DNA of 64,000 nt from Burkholderiales bacterium (GTDB taxonomy: Bacteria; Pseudomonadota; Gammaproteobacteria; Burkholderiales; Nitrosomonadaceae), in contig JABTUQ010000001.1 in the NCBI GenBank assembly GCA_015075225.1, positions 124,001-188,000 on the forward strand. Reading direction: 5' to 3'. How positions within the stretch are numbered: position 1 is the first letter of the stretch; each line of letters begins with the position of its first letter. A program made the position numbers and the translations under genes. Under the pieces are notes generated by a model that saw only the letters and a list, made by a program, of their open reading frames with translations, ran no database searches and was not told where the DNA came from. Below are positions 14,184 through 44,094 of the stretch, one piece after another.

Positions 14184-14340
14184 GGCGGCGACAGTAGATT
14201 TTTATTTTTTCCGGACAGGAAGATTAATACAATAATTGCACATTTCGTTTCAGCAGAATGGGCAGAAATGATGGCAACGAAAGAATGGATAATTCTGCAA
14301 TATATAAAACCGGGTGCGCCGCGTATTCAACACTGATAAG

Positions 14341-14481
14341 AGAACCTCTGAAAAACGTTAGCGAGGCAGCCAGTTCAAGGCAAAAACCGGAGAGAAAGCG
14401 GAGCTTATACGTAATAAATGAGCATTTTGATGCCGATTTTTAACGCAGAAATAACAACGCAGGTAGTTTTTCAGAGGTTCC
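14341..14481 (+). mobile_element. MITE-like element, copy 1
   Basis: A 141-bp member of the dispersed repeat found six times in this window. The left end AGAACCTCTGAAAAACG is the inverted complement of the right end TTTTTCAGAGGTTCC. The inside holds the shared segments AGCGAGGCAG, AAGGCAAAAA and AATAAATGAGCATTTT. There is no transposase. The flanks (TAAG left, ATAA right) do not form a perfect duplication. It lies just upstream of the H-NS-like gene. Confidence 0.85.
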
Positions 14482-14525
14482 ATAACATCAATAAAAACAC
14501 ATATTTTTAGGGATAGACATCCACG

Positions 14526-26517: not shown

Positions 26518-26799
26518 GGAACCCCTGCGTACCATCCTCGTTTTTTCAGATCATTTGTTATGTATAAACTCCGCTTTTTACTCGGCGCCAGCGCCTCGCC
26601 CTGCGGTCCAGCCTTGCGGCTGTTCGCTGCGTTTTACTTGCGTCGCCGATTTTTGCCTTGAACTGATTCCAGTTCTAAATCAAGACTGACTTTGTCGGCT
26701 TCGCCTTGCCGTATTATTCATACTGTCTGCGGCTCGCCTTCGTGTCATTTTTGATTTGGAATTGGAATGACTACCTCGCTGACGTTTTTCAGAGGTTCC
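26518..26799 (-). mobile_element. MITE-like element, copy 2, enlarged
   Basis: A 282-bp copy in reverse orientation, about twice the usual length. Its right end (CGCTGACGTTTTTCAGAGGTTCC) is intact, the left end (GGAACCCCTGCG) is degenerate. The core pieces TATGTATAAACTCCGC and TTTTTGCCTTGAACTGA are shared with other copies, but extra GC-rich DNA (about 26580-26640) and a further segment (26660-26770) split them. No target duplication is visible. It fills the gap between pyrC and argA. Confidence 0.75.
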
Positions 26800-36560: not shown

Positions 36561-37750
36561 GTGAAACTCTCGCAACGCGTTCAGGCTATTAAACCTTCTC
36601 CCACACTGGCAGTGACTGCCAAGGCCGCCAGGCTCAAGGCGGAAGGGAGAAATATCATTGGTCTTGGCGCTGGCGAGCCGGATTTCGATACACCGTTGCA
36701 TATCAAGGACGCGGCAATTACCGCGATCCGTAACGGTTTTACCAAATACACTGCAGTGGGTGGCACGGCCTCGCTCAAGCAGGCAATCATTGCAAAATTC
36801 AAGCGGGAAAATTCACTGGAGTTTGCGCCGGGGGAAATTCTGGTTTCCAGTGGAGGAAAACAAAGCTTCTTCAATCTGGTACTGGCGACTATCGATCCGG
36901 GTGATGAAGTTGTGATTCCAGCTCCTTACTGGGTTTCCTATCCGGATATCGTGCTGATTGCCGGAGGAAAACCGGTTTTCATCCAGACCGGGATCGAGGA
37001 AAAATTCAAGATCTCACCCGAGCAACTGGAAAAAGCAATCACACCCCAAACCCGCATGTTTGTACTCAACAGCCCGAGCAATCCTTCCGGCAGTGTGTAC
37101 AGCCTGGCCGAACTGCAAGCCCTGGGTGCGGTGCTGCGTAAACATCCAGATGTTTTGATTGCAACCGATGACATGTATGAACATATCCTGTTATCCGGGG
37201 ATGGGTTCGTTAATATCCTGAATGCCTGTCCTGATTTGAAAGCACGCACTGTTGTGCTGAATGGAGTATCCAAGGCTTACGCGATGACCGGCTGGCGGAT
37301 CGGTTATGTGGCGGGCCGGCAGCAATCGTACGGCAATGGAAATATCCAGTCGCAAAGTACATCCAACCTGAATCCATTGCGCAAGTAGCGGCCGAAGTGG
37401 CTCTGAACGGCGACCAATCCTGCATGATCCCGATGATCAATGCCTTCCGGGAGCGTAACCAGTTTTTGACGAATGCACTGAATTCCATTGATGGTTTTCA
37501 TTGCCTGTTATCCGAAGGAGCGTTTTACGCTTTTGTGGATGTAAGGCAAGCCATCCATCGCCTGAACACGCAACAGATCCTGCAGGATAAAAGTGATATT
37601 GCCTTCAGCGGTTATGTGCTGGAGAAAGCAGAGGTGGCGGTTGTGCCGGGATCCGCCTTTGGTTGCGAAGGCTATATGCGGTTATCATTTGCAACTTCGA
37701 TGGAAAACCTGCAGGAAGCAGTCAGGCGCATCGCAAATTTGTTGAGTTAA
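36561..37750 (+). pseudogene. Class I aspartate-type aminotransferase, frameshifted
   Basis: A PLP-dependent aminotransferase of subgroup I-gamma (aspartate/prephenate type). The first frame (36561-37388) has GLGAGEPDFDTP, FTKYTAVGGTASLKQAI, PYWVSYPDI, NSPSNPSG and the PLP lysine in NGVSKAYAMTGWRIGY. After residue 255 the frame is lost. The continuation IAQVAAEVALNGDQSCM and the C-terminal domain to 37750 lie in another frame. Comparison with the expected family sequence suggests four single-base losses within about 70 bases (in GGG, GGG, AAAA and CCC runs at 37307-37371). A sequencing problem is as likely as a real pseudogene. Confidence 0.88.
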
Positions 37751-38068: not shown

Positions 38069-38335
38069 TTACACCAAATCCCTATCCTCTTCTGGCGCCG
38101 GAGCGAGGCGTTTTTGCTTCCGGATCAAGCCATGTTCCTCTGCCTTGCGTATCGCTTCATATCTGCAGTGAACATCAAGAAATTCCAGGATTCTCTGGAA
38201 CTGGGTCCGTATCGTCGCGGGAGATCGCTCAAGGTAATATGCGAGTACCTTCGTGCTAGTTGTCTGTTTTTCCCGGCTGGCCTCAAGCAAAGTGTAATGC
38301 GATGGGGGCAAACGTTTGGGTTTGTCATTGACCAT
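38069..38335 (-). CDS. Small LuxR-type helix-turn-helix protein
   Basis: An 88-residue protein that is almost only a DNA-binding domain. TKVLAYYLERSPATIRTQFQRILEFLDV followed by CRYEAIRKAEEHGLI matches the GerE/LuxR helix-turn-helix pattern (recognition helix, then R-x-E-A and A-x-x-x-G-L-I). There is no receiver or ligand-binding domain. The start (complement of 38333-38335) is preceded by AGGAA. It is divergent from the repeat-protein gene, 540 bases away, and is the obvious candidate regulator of that locus; that link is inference. Confidence 0.75.
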   Translation of the reverse strand: MVNDKPKRLPPSHYTLLEASREKQTTSTKVLAYYLERSPATIRTQFQRILEFLDVHCRYEAIRKAEEHGLIRKQKRLAPAPEEDRDLV

Positions 38336-38876
38336 AAGCTTTATTCCTGTTTTGTTTGAATTCAGATTGCATGTTATTCGTTCGCTGCATACAAGGCAGT
38401 AATAAATCCCACAACTCCTCGCCAGCGTGCTGAATTTAGGCAGATATTAACCCGGAACGCTGGTTTTATCCTGACCAAATTAATGTTCGTATCAATTACA
38501 TTAATTTACAAGCATAAAACATGCCATATATATAATTTATTGATTTATATTGTTTTTATCTTCTTATGGAGAGAGCTTTATTCCAGATTGTAAAAAAATC
38601 CGACAAAATTAATCCCCAGACCCTGCTTTAAAACTGCGGGTGTGGGCGGGCATGGCCTGTCTACAGGCAAGGGTTGTGCATGCATGCTTTTCGCCTTGCA
38701 ATCTCTACCATTGTATGCAATTGCAGTATTGTTCCTGTTGGTTTGTTTTCCTAGTATGTGCCTCACAACAAGGGGTCGCTGATAAACGACGTTTACCATG
38801 TTGGTATAGCGAGATAGATGGTATGTACGTAGTACCAATGTTTGATAGAAGCTCTATTTTTAAAGGAAAAAAAACC
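38336..38876. other. Long AT-rich region upstream of the repeat-protein gene
   Basis: 540 bases between divergent genes. The part from 38460 to 38600 is very AT-rich (for example ATATATATAATTTATTGAT near 38530), as expected of a promoter or of an H-NS-bound region. The repeat-protein frame stays open upstream to 38640, but AAAGGAAA at 38862-38869 marks 38877 as the start, so 38600-38876 is probably leader. No operator could be assigned with confidence. Confidence 0.4.
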
Positions 38877-39959
38877 ATGGATAAATTTTCTAAAAGTTTG
38901 TTAGCCGCCAGTATCGCTCTGGCTTTTGGCGTTGCTGGTAATGTCTGGGCTGCGGAAGGCGCAGGTAGTGCATTGCCGAGCGTAACAGACGCTGCTGGTG
39001 CTGGTAAAGGTGATAGCAATGCTGCAGCCAGCAACGGAGGCACTTCATCAACGGCTGATAGCAGTGTCAATGATAGCAACAACACAAAAACTGTAACGAA
39101 AACAGACACTGACAACAGCAACAACAGCGATAACAGCCAAAGAACCAAAACTGTTACCAAAACTGACAATACCAACAACAGCGACAACAGCAACAACAGT
39201 GATAACAGCCAAAGAACCAAGACTGTTACAAAAACCGATACAAACAGCAGCACCAATGACAGCAATAACACAAAAACTGTTACAAAAGACAGCTACAACG
39301 ATAGCAGCGATAACAGCCAAAGAACCAAGACTGTAACCCGCGATAGCAACAATGATAACAGCAGCGCCAATGCAGACGGCAAAGGCAACGCATCGGCTAA
39401 CAATAGCGGTACAGCCACCGTAACTGACAGCAGTGACAGCAACAATACCAAAACTGTTACAAAAGACAGCAACAACGATAACAGCAGTGCAAGTGCGCAT
39501 GGCAAAGGCAATGCCTCTGCTAATGGTGGTAGCACAGCAACGGCTGATAACAGCGATAACAGCGATAACAGCAGCAGCCATGCCAAAGGCAAAGGCAATG
39601 CTTCTGCTAATGGCGGTAGCACAGCATCCGTAACCGATAGCAGCGACAACAGTGATCATAGCGACAACAGCAAAACTGTTGCTAAAGGTGAAGGCAGTGC
39701 AGCTGCTAATGGTGGTAACGCAACTTCTACCTACTCTGTCAACAATGCTTCTTTGAGTGGATCGGTAACAGGACAAGCTGCTGATGGACAGCCTCTTGCT
39801 GCAGCAAGTGAAGGTCTTTGCTGTGCCAACCTGGGCAACAGCATTGATAACTCAATGAACGGTGCTGGTCTCAACCAGGTTGCTCAGAACTCCGGTTCTA
39901 ACTCCCTGATCCAGCAACAAGTATCCTTCCAGGGTAATGTAAACGTTAACCGTCCTTAA
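38877..39959 (+). CDS. Secreted low-complexity repeat protein, candidate amyloid/fibre subunit
   Basis: A 360-residue protein with a signal peptide (MDKFSKSLLAASIALAFG to VWA). Residues 45-290 are built mostly from Ser, Asn, Asp, Thr, Gly and Ala with imperfect repeats: TKTVT(K/R) occurs at about 70, 90, 114, 132, 150 and 191 and as SKTVAK at 265; KGNASAN occurs at 169, 210 and 239. The C-terminal part has a Cys pair (EGLCCANLG, 315-316) and GLNQVAQNSGSNSLIQQQV, resembling the end segments of Fap-type secreted proteins. Five genes in a row follow the Fap export pattern. No enzyme motif is present. Fibre or biofilm matrix function is inference from composition and context. Confidence 0.8.
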   Translation: MDKFSKSLLAASIALAFGVAGNVWAAEGAGSALPSVTDAAGAGKGDSNAAASNGGTSSTADSSVNDSNNTKTVTKTDTDNSNNSDNSQRTKTVTKTDNTNNSDNSNNSDNSQRTKTVTKTDTNSSTNDSNNTKTVTKDSYNDSSDNSQRTKTVTRDSNNDNSSANADGKGNASANNSGTATVTDSSDSNNTKTVTKDSNNDNSSASAHGKGNASANGGSTATADNSDNSDNSSSHAKGKGNASANGGSTASVTDSSDNSDHSDNSKTVAKGEGSAAANGGNATSTYSVNNASLSGSVTGQAADGQPLAAASEGLCCANLGNSIDNSMNGAGLNQVAQNSGSNSLIQQQVSFQGNVNVNRP

Positions 39960-40000
39960 TCTTGAATCATTACAACTAGATTAAAGATGTGATACCTGAG

Positions 40001-40038
40001 ACTGGCAGGCAGTAGCAATATTGCTTGCCAGTTTTTTT
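40001..40038 (+). terminator. Rho-independent terminator after the repeat-protein gene
   Basis: ACTGGCA (40001-40007) pairs with TGCCAGT (about 40026-40032), with an inner AGCAATATTGCT palindrome, followed by TTTTTTT. It lies 42 bases after the repeat-protein stop and would allow that gene to be expressed at a higher level than the genes behind it. Confidence 0.8.
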
Positions 40039-40082
40039 ATCAGGAAGAGATAAAAAAACGTGAGTGATGCATGGAGGTTTTT

Positions 40083-40449
40083 ATGAGAACCAGTATTGGA
40101 AAATGTCTTGTTGCACTTGCGATATGCATGCCTGTGAGTGTGGCTTATGCAGCATCCGGATCTGAATTTCTGGAAGGAGAAGGTGCTTATCTTCCGCATG
40201 CGGAGAGAGCTTCCCTGGAAGAGCTGGATCGTGCTACAGGCCGGGAAGGGGTGGATGTCACTACACTTAACCGCATGAATGTTCGTGCATTTCTTACCGA
40301 CAATAGCGCAACCAATAATGTCAGTGGATTTAATTCGATTGATAACGGCTCTTTTGTCGGGGCAGTGGGATGTTTTCAGTTATTCAGAATTCACAAATAA
40401 TGTATTGATTCAGGATTCAACCATTGTGAATGTAACGATATTGCCCTGA
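40083..40449 (+). CDS. Small secreted protein of the Fap-like locus (two frameshifts)
   Basis: ATG 40083 has GGAGG five bases before it and opens a signal peptide (MRTSIGKCLVALAICMPVSV to YAA). The mature part contains HAERASLEELDRATGREGVDV, a motif like the leader site of the second small protein of this locus. The frame as read stops at 40400. In other frames the natural continuation is visible: SGMFSVIQNS, then NNVLIQDSTIVNVTIL up to a stop at 40447-40449. One base seems to be missing near 40370 and one near 40395. The motif QNS-x-N-x-L-I-Q is shared with the C-terminus of the repeat protein, so both may interact with the same partner. Length about 121 residues. Confidence 0.65.
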
Positions 40450-40610
40450 GTTCATATCGGTTTTCTGGATGGATGGCAAAAGGGTGATTTTCAAGCTGAA
40501 TTTCCCGCATAGGGAGAGACCAAACTGTTTATTCTAGGTATTTTGCAAACTTCCCAGAGATTTGCCATAGAAGTGCCGCTTCGATCAACCTTTATTTTGC
40601 AAGCACTTTA

Positions 40611-41269
40611 TTGGCCTGGGGTGGCGATGTGTTGGCGCTGGATATGATTGGCGTTGCAGGCGGTGCTAATTTCAGCGTACAAGGCAAAAGCTTTGCGGAA
40701 CGTCGTTTTAATACTGTTTACAGACAGCAGTTCGATTTCAGTTGTGGTTCGGCTGCGCTGGCAAGCTTGCTGACTTTTCATTACGACGATACGGTGGATG
40801 AGCAATCCGTGTTTGTCGATATGTTCAAGCATGGAAATCAGGAAAAAATCAAGCGGGAAGGCTTTTCCATGCTGGATATGAAGCTGTATCTCGAACGAAG
40901 GGGATACGGTTCGGATGGATTCAAAATCAACCTGGATCAGTTGTACTCTACCGGGAGCCCTGCCATTACTATCATCAACCATAATGGTTACATGCACTTT
41001 GTTATCGTTAAGGGAGTGAGCAAAGACAAGATTTTGCTGGGGGATCCCGCTCAAGGTGTCAAATCGGTTGATCGGGGTGATTTCGAGAAAATGTGGGGAA
41101 ATCGTATCTTATTTCTGATCCATGGCAATCTTGATCCTGAGGTAAGCTACCAGGCAATCCAGCAGGAATGGGCAGGTAGACTGGCTCCACTGGGCAGAAA
41201 CGGTCCGATCGAACGAGTCTGGGTGTTTACAATGTACTGCTGCCCTTTCTGGATTTTGATGATTTGTAA
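40611..41269 (+). CDS. C39-like cysteine protease (FapD-like)
   Basis: A stand-alone C39 peptidase domain. The catalytic triad is visible, counting from TTG 40611: Cys 45 in FDFSCGSAAL, His 129 in GYMHFVIVKG and Asp 145 in LLGDPAQG. Before it lies LDMIGVAGGANFSV after a hydrophobic stretch (INLYFASTLLAW, just upstream of 40611), so a signal peptide probably starts further upstream, in a region without an in-frame standard start codon. Near 41213 one base appears lost: the family-like end SLGVYNVLLPFLDFDDL lies in another frame and stops at 41269, while the frame as read runs to 41384. In Pseudomonas, FapD is the C39-like protease of amyloid export. Confidence 0.8.
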
Positions 41270-41283
41270 CAAGCGAGGAAAAA

Positions 41284-41782
41284 ATGAAAACCGCACGTTC
41301 AATCTGTTGCCTAAAGCATTTCGATCCTATCTTGTGTTACTGATAATGCCGTATTTTATGGTTCAGCCCATGCCGAGGGTGTAGATGCAGGATTGACCAA
41401 GCGGGATGCTTTCAAGCAGGAATGGGAAAGGGCGTCAGCTGAGGAGCTGGATTCGTTAAGAGGTGGATTTATTTTGCCAAATGGTATGCATATTAATATG
41501 AACCTGGAAAAATTCATTCATTTGAATGATGTATTAGTACATGCATCCACAATCCAGTATCCCGGAGAAGGATCCGTATTACAGGCGGGGATGCAAAACA
41601 TGATAGCCAACTCGGTATCCATACCGGAAATCAGCACTTATGTTCAGAATGCTCTGGATGGCCAGCATATAGAGGCATTAACGAAAATCAATATAGAAGT
41701 AAGCAACGTAAAGGGACTTATGGCAAATGGTGGAAACCAGCGGGTTTTCACTGATTTTCTGGCGCCGGCTTTGCTGCGGTAA
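41284..41782 (+). CDS. Small secreted protein with double-glycine-like site (frameshifts in the leader)
   Basis: ATG 41284 follows AGCGAGGAAA, 14 bases after the protease stop. The leader (MKTARSI, a hydrophobic FRSYLVLLIMPY, then GSAHAEG) is spread over three frames, requiring two base changes between about 41300 and 41345. From 41342 one frame is clean: DNAVFYGSAHAEGVDAGLTK, then SAEELDSLRGGF, and a 95-residue C-terminal part with MHINMNLEKFIHLNDV and INIEVSNVKGLM. SAEELDSLRGG fits the double-glycine leader consensus (S -11, E -8, L -7, L -4, G -2, G -1) cleaved by C39 proteases. By position it corresponds to fapE. Function inferred from this and from the neighbouring protease. Confidence 0.65.
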
Positions 41783-41803
41783 CATGCCCTGATTACCGTC
41801 CGA

Positions 41804-43192
41804 ATGAAAGAGAATATGTCTGATACAAACAGCCTGCTTCATGGCTCCTTGAAGTACAAATGGCTTGTCGGCTCCCTTGCCATATTTCTTGCTACTTATC
41901 CCCAGACAGGCAGACCAGCCGAAGAAATACTTGAGCAATATAAATCCCTGTTCGAACAGCAACAAAAAGAATTCGAGAAACAGCGTCAAATTATCATCGA
42001 GCAAGGGAACGAAATTGAAAAACTCAAGGCTCGTCTGGATTCTCTGGTTACGACGCAGCCTGCCAATCAAAATCAGGCTAAAACTGTAGCCGGAAAGGAT
42101 GAGCAACCATCTTCCCCTGCCTCATCTGTTCAAAAGGAAAAGGCTGCGGATGCCAGGTCGGCTGATAAAAAAGCAGATCAGGTCCATGCACGCGCCGAGC
42201 AGAATAATCTGCCAGCAGGCCCGGTAGGGCAGGCGCCACCCAAACAGGATGAAAAGCCAAGACCTCCCGAGATACCAAGGTTAAGTAACACGGTCGGTGG
42301 TGTAATAACCCATAAAGGCAAGATAGTGGTTGAACCCGCCATGGAGTATGCCTTTACGGACAGCAGCAGGGTATTTCTGGATGCGTTTACCTTCCTCCCG
42401 GCTATTGCTATTGGTCTGATTGATATACGACAGGTGAAACAGCACAGCCTCATGGCCAGTCTTGGTGTCCGTTACGGTGTAACTGACCGTTTTGAAGTGG
42501 AAGCGCGGATTCCATACCGTGCGCGTTTTGATATCCAGCGCTCAAGGCCGGTAAGTATCGGAGCTTCGATAGATGAAACTTTCAATGCTTCCGGCAATGG
42601 TCTAGGGGATATTGAATTTGCCGCGCGATATCAGCTTAACTCTGGTGAAGGGGGATGGCCTATTCTGATAGGCAATCTGCAAGCTACAGCGCCTACTGGT
42701 AAAGGCCCTTTCGATATCAAGTATGAGCGGGCGATTGGGGTTCCGGGCGCGGTGTTTCCTACCGAAATCCCGACAGGTTCCGGATTTTTCAGTGTTGAGC
42801 CAAGTATTACTGCTTTGTATGCGACTGATCCCGCCGTGTTCTTTGCCAACCTGGCTTATAACTACAATATGAGCACAAAGGAAAAGACACTTGATGGGTC
42901 GGGTGACAAGATAAAAATTGACCCGGGTTACGGGGTGGGTTTGACTGTTGGCATGGGTTTCGGGATAAATGAGCGTTCCTCATTTAACATTGGCTACTCC
43001 CATCGCCATATTTTTGACACACAAATAAACGGAACCACGTTGCGGGGAAGCCAGCTTGATATAGGGCAGTTGCTGTTTGGATATGCCTTTAAGTATTCAC
43101 CGAAAACCACTTTGAATTTCTCGTTTTCGGTGGGTACAACCAGTGATGCGCAGGATGTCAGGCTTAGTTTCAGAATGCCTATGGTTTATTAG
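41804..43192 (+). CDS. Coiled-coil plus beta-barrel outer-membrane protein (FapF-like)
   Basis: A 462-residue protein. A hydrophobic signal (LVGSLAIFLATYPQTG) is followed by a coiled coil at about 40-82 (ILEQYKSLFEQQQKEFEKQ), a Pro/Gln/Lys-rich linker to 158 and a beta-barrel from about 160 to the end (SFRMPMVY, ending in an aromatic residue). This architecture, with an N-terminal coiled coil before a barrel, is that of FapF, the outer-membrane secretion channel for functional amyloid. The start may be ATG 41804 or 41816. An IS5-family element begins within the stop codon (TA from the gene, G from the element). Confidence 0.8.
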   Translation: MKENMSDTNSLLHGSLKYKWLVGSLAIFLATYPQTGRPAEEILEQYKSLFEQQQKEFEKQRQIIIEQGNEIEKLKARLDSLVTTQPANQNQAKTVAGKDEQPSSPASSVQKEKAADARSADKKADQVHARAEQNNLPAGPVGQAPPKQDEKPRPPEIPRLSNTVGGVITHKGKIVVEPAMEYAFTDSSRVFLDAFTFLPAIAIGLIDIRQVKQHSLMASLGVRYGVTDRFEVEARIPYRARFDIQRSRPVSIGASIDETFNASGNGLGDIEFAARYQLNSGEGGWPILIGNLQATAPTGKGPFDIKYERAIGVPGAVFPTEIPTGSGFFSVEPSITALYATDPAVFFANLAYNYNMSTKEKTLDGSGDKIKIDPGYGVGLTVGMGFGINERSSFNIGYSHRHIFDTQINGTTLRGSQLDIGQLLFGYAFKYSPKTTLNFSFSVGTTSDAQDVRLSFRMPMVY

Positions 43193-44094
43193 GGTGTGTT
43201 CTCAATCAAGTCAACCATCGATAGCGCAAGCTAGCTGGACGAACGACAGGAAGGATTGATCGCGAGTTTGTCGTAGCGCGTGGCGATGCGTCTGAATTGC
43301 TTGATATCGTGCGAAGAAACGCTCGATCAGATTGCGGCTCTTGTAGATATGGCGGTCGAACGTGCGCGGGTTGAGTCTGCTGGAGCGTGGCGGGATGACC
43401 GCCTGACTGCCTTGGTTTGTAATCGCGGTGACGAAGGCATCCGAGTCGTACCCTTTGTCGGCCACAACGAATTGACGGGCTGATCCTGATCAGTGCGGTC
43501 GCTTGTTCGATATCGGCAATCTGGCCGGCCGAGAGAATTATCCGCAGCGGATTGCCCAAGGCATCCACGGCGACATGCAGTTGGTGGTCAGTCCGTTCCG
43601 TGAACGGCCAATTTCCTGTTGGCCTGCTTTTTGGGCGCCAGCGGAGTGCTGGTGGGCGCGCACGATGGTCGAGTCAATGAACAAATGCTCCATGTCAGCA
43701 TCGCCTTGCAGTGCTGTTGCCACACGCTCCCAGACACCTTTCTCGCGCCAGCGCGAGAAGCGGACGAAAGTCCGATGCCAATGCCCAAGCTCTTCGGGCA
43801 GGTCACGCCACGGACTGCCGGTACGCATGATCCAGAGAACGGCTTCGACAAAGCGTCGGTTGTCCTTCGCCGTACAGCCAGGATCGCCCTTCTTGCCCGG
43901 CAATAGCTGCTCAATGCGTGCCCACTGGTCATCTCGTAACATCGTCCGGTCCATCCTGACTCCTGCGCAAAAGTCAGATATGACCATAATTCATCCACTG
44001 TGAACAGCCCCTCGCCATGTCATTGACCGTGAACGATTTATTCGGCGTCAATTGCATATGGCATACAGCTATTCGCATGATTGAGAACAAACCC
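43192..44094 (-). mobile_element. IS5-family insertion sequence, 903 bp, degenerate
   Basis: The ends are inverted: GGGTGTGTTCTCAATC at 43192-43207 and, on the other strand, GGGTTTGTTCTCAATC at 44094-44079. Both sides are flanked by TA (43190-43191 and 44095-44096), in keeping with a 2-bp target duplication. The element carries a transposase on the minus strand with several frameshifts. Right flank TAGGGAAG suggests the uninterrupted sequence continued as TAT-TAG-GGAAG, so the original stop of the FapF-like gene was split and rebuilt. Confidence 0.85.
43206..43954 (-). pseudogene. IS5-family DDE transposase, frameshifted
   Basis: Start MDRTMLRDDQWARIEQLLPGK (complement of 43952-43954); the first part contains RRFVEAVLWIMRTGSPWRDLP and the first catalytic Asp in HLFIDSTIVRAHQHSAG. 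After GLTT the frame changes to DALGNPLRIILSAGQIADI, then to VVADKGYDSDAFV (second Asp), then SRNLIERFFAR (Glu), and again before FLSFVQLACAID. At least five single-base losses are needed. In some IS5-group elements one frameshift is programmed, but not five, so the copy is dead or misread. Confidence 0.85.

Follow-up and report, generated by a model that had tools for sequence, protein, structure and literature searches.

What is encoded by a six-gene locus of an ammonia oxidizer of the Nitrosomonadaceae, in which a large repeat protein stands beside a C39 peptidase and a FapF-like outer-membrane barrel, and how is it related to the Fap fibre system of Pseudomonas? The locus lies at positions 38069-43192 of a 64,000-nucleotide stretch from Burkholderiales bacterium (assembly GCA_015075225.1, contig JABTUQ010000001.1, positions 124,001 to 188,000), which is called the window throughout the paper. 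The genome carrying it comprises 2.48 Mb on 19 contigs. Re-reading of the sequence yielded the six genes with the coordinates and in the order of the initial annotation: a small divergent gene for a putative regulator on the minus strand, followed on the plus strand by the genes for the repeat protein, a small secreted protein (small1), the C39 peptidase, a second small secreted protein (small2) and the barrel protein. From comparisons at the sequence level we consider it probable, with roughly 70% confidence, that the locus represents a sister branch of the Fap secretion system, which would build surface fibres by the mechanism proposed below.

The relationship to Fap is most clearly seen for the barrel and the peptidase. 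By eye, the barrel protein (462 residues, 41804-43192) consists of a signal peptide, a helical N-terminal segment, a VGQAPP...RPPE linker and the barrel itself. It matched the solved FapF structure (PDB 5o67) over residues 148-460 with an E-value of 5.3e-27 and the NCBIfam FapF model NF058560 with 142 bits, followed by FilC with 53 bits. No second barrel of the FapF kind was found in the genome at an E-value of 0.001. The peptidase (40569 to about 41280) matched Pfam C39 (E 1.2e-18), NCBIfam FapD (E 1.4e-36) and FilB (E 4e-34). Its Cys-His-Asp triad (40743-40745, 40995-40997 and 41043-41045), already recognized in the initial annotation, was invariant in 15 of 15 aligned peptidases including that of the window. 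Homology and triad identify it as a FapD-type C39 peptidase with a predicted periplasmic location; the signal peptides of the repeat protein, the barrel and, in the relatives, the peptidase were assigned by eye. Thus, both proteins matched the FapD and FapF profiles, in both cases below the curated cutoffs. In a tree of 60 barrels (FastTree) three separate clades became visible: Fap (17 entries, support 0.996), Fil (5 entries, support 1.0) and a Nitrosomonas-type group (38 entries, support 0.797; 37 entries and support 0.988 without the outlier L077). The 16 Nitrosomonas barrels formed one clade with a support of 1.0. The window barrel fell outside the Fap clade, in contrast to a barrel of a Fap system in the narrow sense. 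Judged by this tree, the system forms a sister branch of Fap, with a clade of its own next to those of Fap and Fil. The proposed "divergent Fap-like" character was right with respect to the Fap relationship and is sharpened by this placement. The nearest relatives of barrel and peptidase were FapF/FapD and Fil, and not unrelated porins or bacteriocin transporters, and the gene context recurs in other genomes, so that the refuting condition named in the initial annotation did not apply. Predicted structures were of low confidence (mean predicted local distance difference test score of 30.8 for the barrel with 7 sequences and 42.4 for small2 with 6 sequences), and no inference was drawn from them.

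The genes occur together in other genomes. Among 100 genomes of the family the barrel was found in 16, with 16 of 60 genomes of the genus and 0 of 40 genomes of three other genera being positive; one of the 16 (G094) holds an ~80-residue fragment near a contig end. An independent profile search detected small2 in 15 of the 100 genomes, namely the barrel genomes minus G094. The complete order repeat protein-small1-C39-small2-barrel was conserved in 12 of 15 Nitrosomonas relatives (L018-L032), and is therefore not due to chance. L018, counted as complete, contains masked bases within its repeat gene, and the three incomplete loci (L022, L023 and L031) run into contig ends. In L027, L029 and L032, an extra 1.3-1.6 kb of DNA separates small1 from the repeat gene.

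Across the class, 35 of 369 genomes were matched by the FapF model, in two bands, one of 307-456 bits (17 matches in 16 genomes) and one of 75-171 bits, with 142 bits for this genome. Of the 19 other low-band matches, 16 were extended to wider regions, as were 4 high-band matches, and these regions were searched with profiles derived exclusively from Nitrosomonas. The full set of small1, C39, small2 and barrel was present in 11 of the 16 low-band loci, the barrel gene being divergent from the rest in 5 of these 11. In L063, C39 and barrel were accompanied by a weak small1 match (E 0.16); L075 and the outlier L077 showed C39 and barrel only, L076 showed the barrel only, and L067 is truncated where its contig ends. 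The 4 high-band loci gave no small1, small2 or repeat-core profile match at an E-value below 0.5; one of them, L079, is Fap according to NCBIfam (FapB E 6.9e-29, FapC E 6.1e-53, FapE E 6.6e-33). A protein search of plasmid records yielded 18 records, of which seven were fetched. The four-gene set was present in five plasmid or chromid records spanning Alpha-, Beta- and Gammaproteobacteria (Cupriavidus metallidurans CH34, Croceicoccus marinus, Polymorphobacter, Photobacterium and a Vibrio plasmid); in the Croceicoccus record the genes carry the labels "hypothetical protein", "C39 family peptidase" and "transporter". The Aeromonas record showed C39 and barrel only with the Nitrosomonas profiles, and its barrel grouped with Fap in the tree. 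The Indioceanicola record holds a barrel and a repeat protein of 1612 residues, with no C39 match within the fetched stretch. In the broad sense of a C39 peptidase adjoining a FapF-like barrel, the genes form a Fap-type system, by which the repeat proteins would be exported. As a side observation, the Vibrio plasmid (L092) also lists terminase and integrase; the system can thus be carried by DNA that is mobile and possibly derived from a phage.

The last three genes had been compared to fapD-fapE-fapF, and profile comparison bears this out, since the protein between C39 and barrel, small2 (41393-41782, with an N-terminal part from about 41282), is FapE-like. Using hhalign, small2 matched FapE with 84% probability over 35 columns, restricted to the leader region, and none of 100 column shuffles reached this score. 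It is by this leader-region match that a FapE is found between the fapD and fapF counterparts, as in Fap in the narrow sense. The NCBIfam FapE model matched 8 of 16 small2 members weakly (best E 0.0042), and three low-band loci were also matched by a FapE profile built on four Fap loci (E 0.0012-0.0028). An ELxxLRGG-like element ending in RGG was present in all 32 small2 proteins, 31 of which had been picked independently of the element; the relaxed pattern used for this count, RGG end included, was found in 25 of 976 background open reading frames (ORFs). The typical small2 of Nitrosomonas shows RATDEELxxLRGG, then F, and then about 100 residues. In the window this leader end, ASAEELDSLRGG, lies at 41432-41467 with a predicted cleavage after the second Gly. 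Using the strict pattern [LIVMFA][ST]xx[ED]Lxx[LIMV]xG[GA], 14 of 32 small2, 0 of 30 small1 and 0 of 18 FapE proteins were matched, compared to 1 of 976 background ORFs and a mean of 0.015 per set of shuffled small2. FapE proteins of the Fap clade carry ELxxMRG[R/K] at the equivalent place, and the element was followed by R or K in all 14 distinct FapE, at residues 44-81, with one exception at residue 129 in a protein with a longer predicted start.

Leaders of C39 peptidase substrates take the form LSxxELxxIxGG. A published consensus is M(R/K)ELX3E(I/L)X2(I/V)XG(G/A) (PMC3140520), and small2 has the hydrophobic, acidic and double-glycine positions of such a leader, from which its cleavage is predicted. 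Small2 thus offers a clear candidate cleavage site for the C39 protease of the system. FapD was described to act in the periplasm and to require its catalytic Cys, while its target was stated to be unclear (PMC5557850); its substrate is also stated to be unknown in a 2018 review (PMC6173800). According to PMC5557850, the Fap proteins are devoid of canonical C39 sequences, FapE is a possible FapD target because of GG and GA motifs, and FapE alone among the Fap proteins yielded no peptides from the first ~70 residues in mass spectrometry. The leader position predicted here fits these missing N-terminal peptides. Cleavage of FapE is the idea of Rouse et al. (PMC5557850); the defined leader element is the addition of the present comparison. 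In a FapE-like protein of 403 residues from locus L065 (10319-11530, oriented), a long segment resembling a coiled coil precedes the RGG, which is located at residue 287.

The candidate fibre subunit is the repeat protein (360 residues, 38877-39959), to which a FapC-like role would be assigned on the basis of its reading frame, composition, tandem repeats and relatives. Its start was taken as ATG 38877 instead of the listed GTG 38640. Asn, Ser and Asp together make up 45% of the mature protein, which has an aromatic content of 0.9%, no Trp and a net charge of -11. The gene holds tandem DNA repeats, and the protein possesses a long tail rich in Asn, Ser, Asp and Thr. Its best-conserved part in an alignment with 13 relatives is a C-terminal core of 40 of the 360 residues, NSIDNS...GLNQVAQNSGSNSLIQQQVSFQGN (39837-39956). 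The initial annotation had noticed a QNSGSNSLIQ segment in both the repeat protein and small1 (40071 to about 40450, FapB- or FapA-like role). This type of motif is indeed common to both; it is intact in small1 of the relatives, 13 of which have the complete protein, and the two families matched by profile with 73% probability. The Cys pair noticed in the repeat protein is present in the window (39819-39824), but absent from the 13 relatives aligned there, and is therefore no feature of the system. For comparison with Fap, cores were selected by a regular expression fixing some Gly and Gln/Asn positions, and random cores obtained with the same expression served as control. In a profile-profile comparison with 22 FapB/FapC repeats from four Fap loci, the cores reached 89% probability and a score of 25.5, compared to 15.8 for the best of 150 column shuffles and 10.3 for the best of 25 random core sets. 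Whole small1 compared to whole FapB exceeded 100 of 100 shuffles, yet with a probability of 18%, and all whole-protein comparisons of the repeat protein or small1 with FapB or FapC gave 0.2-18%. Homology of the core to the FapB/FapC repeats is graded as likely, because the profile comparison supports it while single-sequence scores hardly exceed those of shuffled sequences. A protein of the Indioceanicola plasmid, the one of 1612 residues (L088, 2730-7568, oriented, minus strand), contains six Gln/Asn cores and adjoins the FapF-like barrel.

Several results weigh against a fibre-building sister branch of Fap. The peptidase scored 126 bits with FapD compared to an NCBIfam cutoff of 330, and the 142 bits of the barrel compare to a curated cutoff of 700 for NF058560, which was passed by 0 of the 369 class genomes, the matches of 307-456 bits included. 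The Nitrosomonas subunit and small1 contain one core each, versus about three in FapC. Using a profile hidden Markov model (HMM) of the 22 FapB/FapC repeats at a threshold of at least 5 bits, 1 of 29 fibre proteins and 7 of 30 small1 proteins were matched, compared to 2 of 145 shuffled fibre proteins and 3 of 150 shuffled small1 proteins (one at 14.8 bits). With the same model and threshold, 1 of 32 small2 proteins, 5 of 18 FapE and 2 of 783 background proteins were matched; two (L072 and L088) of the three best background matches were repeat proteins of the same loci, outside the set. NCBIfam FapB and FapC matched neither window proteins nor members of set A1, and the small1 of the distant Croceicoccus reached FapB with an E-value of 0.015 only. 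The FapB and FapC with about three repeats each that mark Fap in the narrow sense (PMC3792158) were accordingly not found. FapA gave no NCBIfam match either; the FapA candidate of a Fap locus was also without a match, so that the model may be absent, and fapA is often missing from Fap loci (PMC3792158). Finally, 18 of 30 small1 proteins carry a looser leader element, 2 of them with GG, and its relaxed pattern was found in 122 of 976 background ORFs.

The machinery might be imagined as a FapF/FapD-type exporter of a non-amyloid polymer, the tail forming a hydrated or glycosylated coat or an adhesin and the conserved C-terminus serving as a secretion or docking signal. Such a function would agree with the dominance of the tail over the short core in the window subunit, with the length of 323 to 508 residues of the complete subunits among the relatives, and with the Fil-like loci, where related machinery accompanies quite different-looking proteins. 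The core, however, is conserved, common to small1 and matched to the FapB/FapC repeats by profile. Moreover, it is present in four tandem copies in the distant subunits L064 and L071, both of which are devoid of the Asn/Ser/Asp tail. We consider a non-amyloid polymer unlikely.

The condition of the window copy also counts against a functional fibre system. The gene list of the initial annotation was right, but did not mention that, compared to the intact relatives, small1 is without its last ~20 residues in frame, the C39 gene is frame-broken at its C-terminal end and small2 in its N-terminal part. Considering in addition that 44 of the 60 genomes sampled from the genus are without the barrel, a decaying relic, i.e., a pseudogene cluster in this strain, would be conceivable. 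DNA comparison with three relatives, however, revealed single-base length differences at the breaks, grouped tightly together. An extra cluster of this kind splits the upstream aminotransferase gene (36561-37750) into two frames, with both halves recognizable; in the two relatives with sequence extending over this gene, it is intact. Elsewhere in the window ORFs of 849, 926, 695, 767 and 749 codons are open, and the repeat and barrel genes of the locus are intact. Because the clustered breaks also hit the neighbouring aminotransferase and other long ORFs are open, poor local consensus sequence is the likelier cause compared to true decay, and a relic appears improbable.

The sister branch of Fap proposed here was compared to known systems. 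As in the Pseudomonas system (fapABCDEF; FapF structures PDB 5o65, 5o67 and 5o68), C39, a FapE-like protein and the barrel follow each other in D-E-F order, Gln/Asn repeat subunits are encoded, and the leader element is placed as in FapE. In contrast to Pseudomonas, the barrel clade is separate, the leader ends in RGG instead of RG[R/K], scores stay below the family cutoffs, the repeat protein precedes small1, a subunit usually has one core and a long Asn/Ser/Asp tail, and the Nitrosomonas-type branch is also found in Alphaproteobacteria. With Fil (NCBIfam FilB/FilC, "putative pilus system"), for which Acinetobacter records were also among the tblastn matches, the locus shares a C39 adjoining a FapF-related barrel. 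The barrel clade is distinct, however, and no homologues of small1, small2 or the repeat core were detected in five Fil-like loci at an E-value of 1e-3. An LxDxxLxxATGQ-like start was observed in four secreted-looking proteins from 2 of these 5 loci, but the pattern was not clearly enriched (4 of 161 ORFs in Fil-like loci, 10 of 678 in other loci). Curli (Csg), a secreted Gln/Asn repeat amyloid, follows a similar concept; no CsgG match was found in this genome. An export island for bacteriocin- or microcin-like peptides of the Neisseria Nap type, which likewise unites a C39 peptidase (NapP), a FapF homologue (NapF) and peptides with GG motifs (PMC11798529), and to which the match of 3 of 16 small2 proteins to a bacteriocin family (best E 0.0091) might point, is highly improbable, as about 100 residues with Gln/Asn-rich segments follow the leader of small2, a large repetitive subunit adjoins in Nitrosomonas, and no immunity-type gene was noticed in the window locus, without a search aimed at immunity genes having been made. 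Unlike the products of the Nitrosomonas locus, NapA-C are small cationic peptides linked to autolysis, and no fibre-like subunit is described in the accessible text of the Nap report (PMC11798529).

The Fap survey of Dueholm et al. from 2013 confined Fap to Beta-, Gamma- and Deltaproteobacteria and placed FapD and FapF in larger families (PMC3792158). Co-located fapD and fapF homologues were later reported for five additional phyla (2018 review, PMC6173800), and these pairs may include the Nitrosomonas-type branch. For granules of ammonia oxidizers an amyloid-like, glycosylated, Trp-rich matrix was described (Lin et al., 2018, PMC6291783). The accessible part of that report itself points to Csg in N. 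marina and names no gene for the granule matrix. A simple identification of the repeat protein with this matrix is disfavoured, as the matrix is Trp-rich and the repeat protein has 0.9% aromatic residues and no Trp.

Upstream of the repeat gene, the divergent gene at 38069-38335 on the minus strand encodes a helix-turn-helix protein of 88 residues, a possible regulator. The existence of this small gene was correctly proposed, but the label "LuxR-type" is weak (GerE E 0.17, EpsA C-terminus E 0.016). Homologues were found in 7 of 15 Nitrosomonas relatives, and in at least 4 of the other 8 loci the sequence upstream of the repeat gene is very short or missing. No perfect palindrome upstream of the repeat gene was common to the relatives. 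Directly downstream of the barrel gene, at 43206-43987 on the minus strand, a transposase-like protein (IS5 type by eye) is encoded in two overlapping frames. Elsewhere in the window, at about 14337-14485 and 26551-26777, elements of ~100-150 bases match dozens of sites in the related genome G082, mostly with 80-93% identity, and resemble small mobile or palindromic repeats.

For Fap the published route leads by Sec export into the periplasm, where C39 cleavage takes place, then through a trimeric barrel, which has a coiled coil on its periplasmic side, and ends with fibre growth outside the cell (PMC5557850, PMC6173800). By analogy, we infer secretion, cleavage, fibre formation, amyloid character and a role in biofilms for the present locus. 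All products except the regulator would be exported by Sec, and the FapF-like protein, with its helical region in the periplasm, would form the pore in the outer membrane. The major subunit would be the repeat protein, whose single C-terminal Gln/Asn-rich core stacks into a cross-beta fibre, while the Asn/Ser/Asp/Thr-rich tail would stay disordered as a hydrated brush around it. Small1 with its one repeat copy would act as minor subunit for the starting or capping of fibres. In the periplasm, the C39 peptidase would cut small2 after the ELxxLRGG leader and thereby license or open secretion; it might also cut small1 after ...GR. A more far-reaching proposal, which we put forward tentatively and at somewhat less than even odds, is that of a third, largely undescribed FapD/FapF-type branch in Alpha-, Beta- and Gammaproteobacteria, partly located on plasmids and chromids. 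Its "hairy" fibres would contain one cross-beta rung plus a disordered brush per subunit. C39 peptidases across FapD and FilB would read a common leader of about L[S/T/N]DxxLxx[L/M/A][R/T]G[G/R/K/Q] after the Sec signal of FapE-like proteins, so that FapE would be the FapD substrate, cut right after the motif.

The candidate cleavage site is the most useful result of the analysis. Fap secretion requires the active-site Cys of FapD (PMC5557850), and the leader in the FapE-like protein points to the equivalent residues of FapE, by which the question of the FapD substrate becomes testable. The comparison also extends Fap-type systems to Alphaproteobacteria and plasmids, compared to the Beta-, Gamma- and Deltaproteobacteria of the 2013 survey (PMC3792158). 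For the ammonia oxidizers, whose granules hold an amyloid-like matrix (PMC6291783), the locus provides a defined candidate fibre system.

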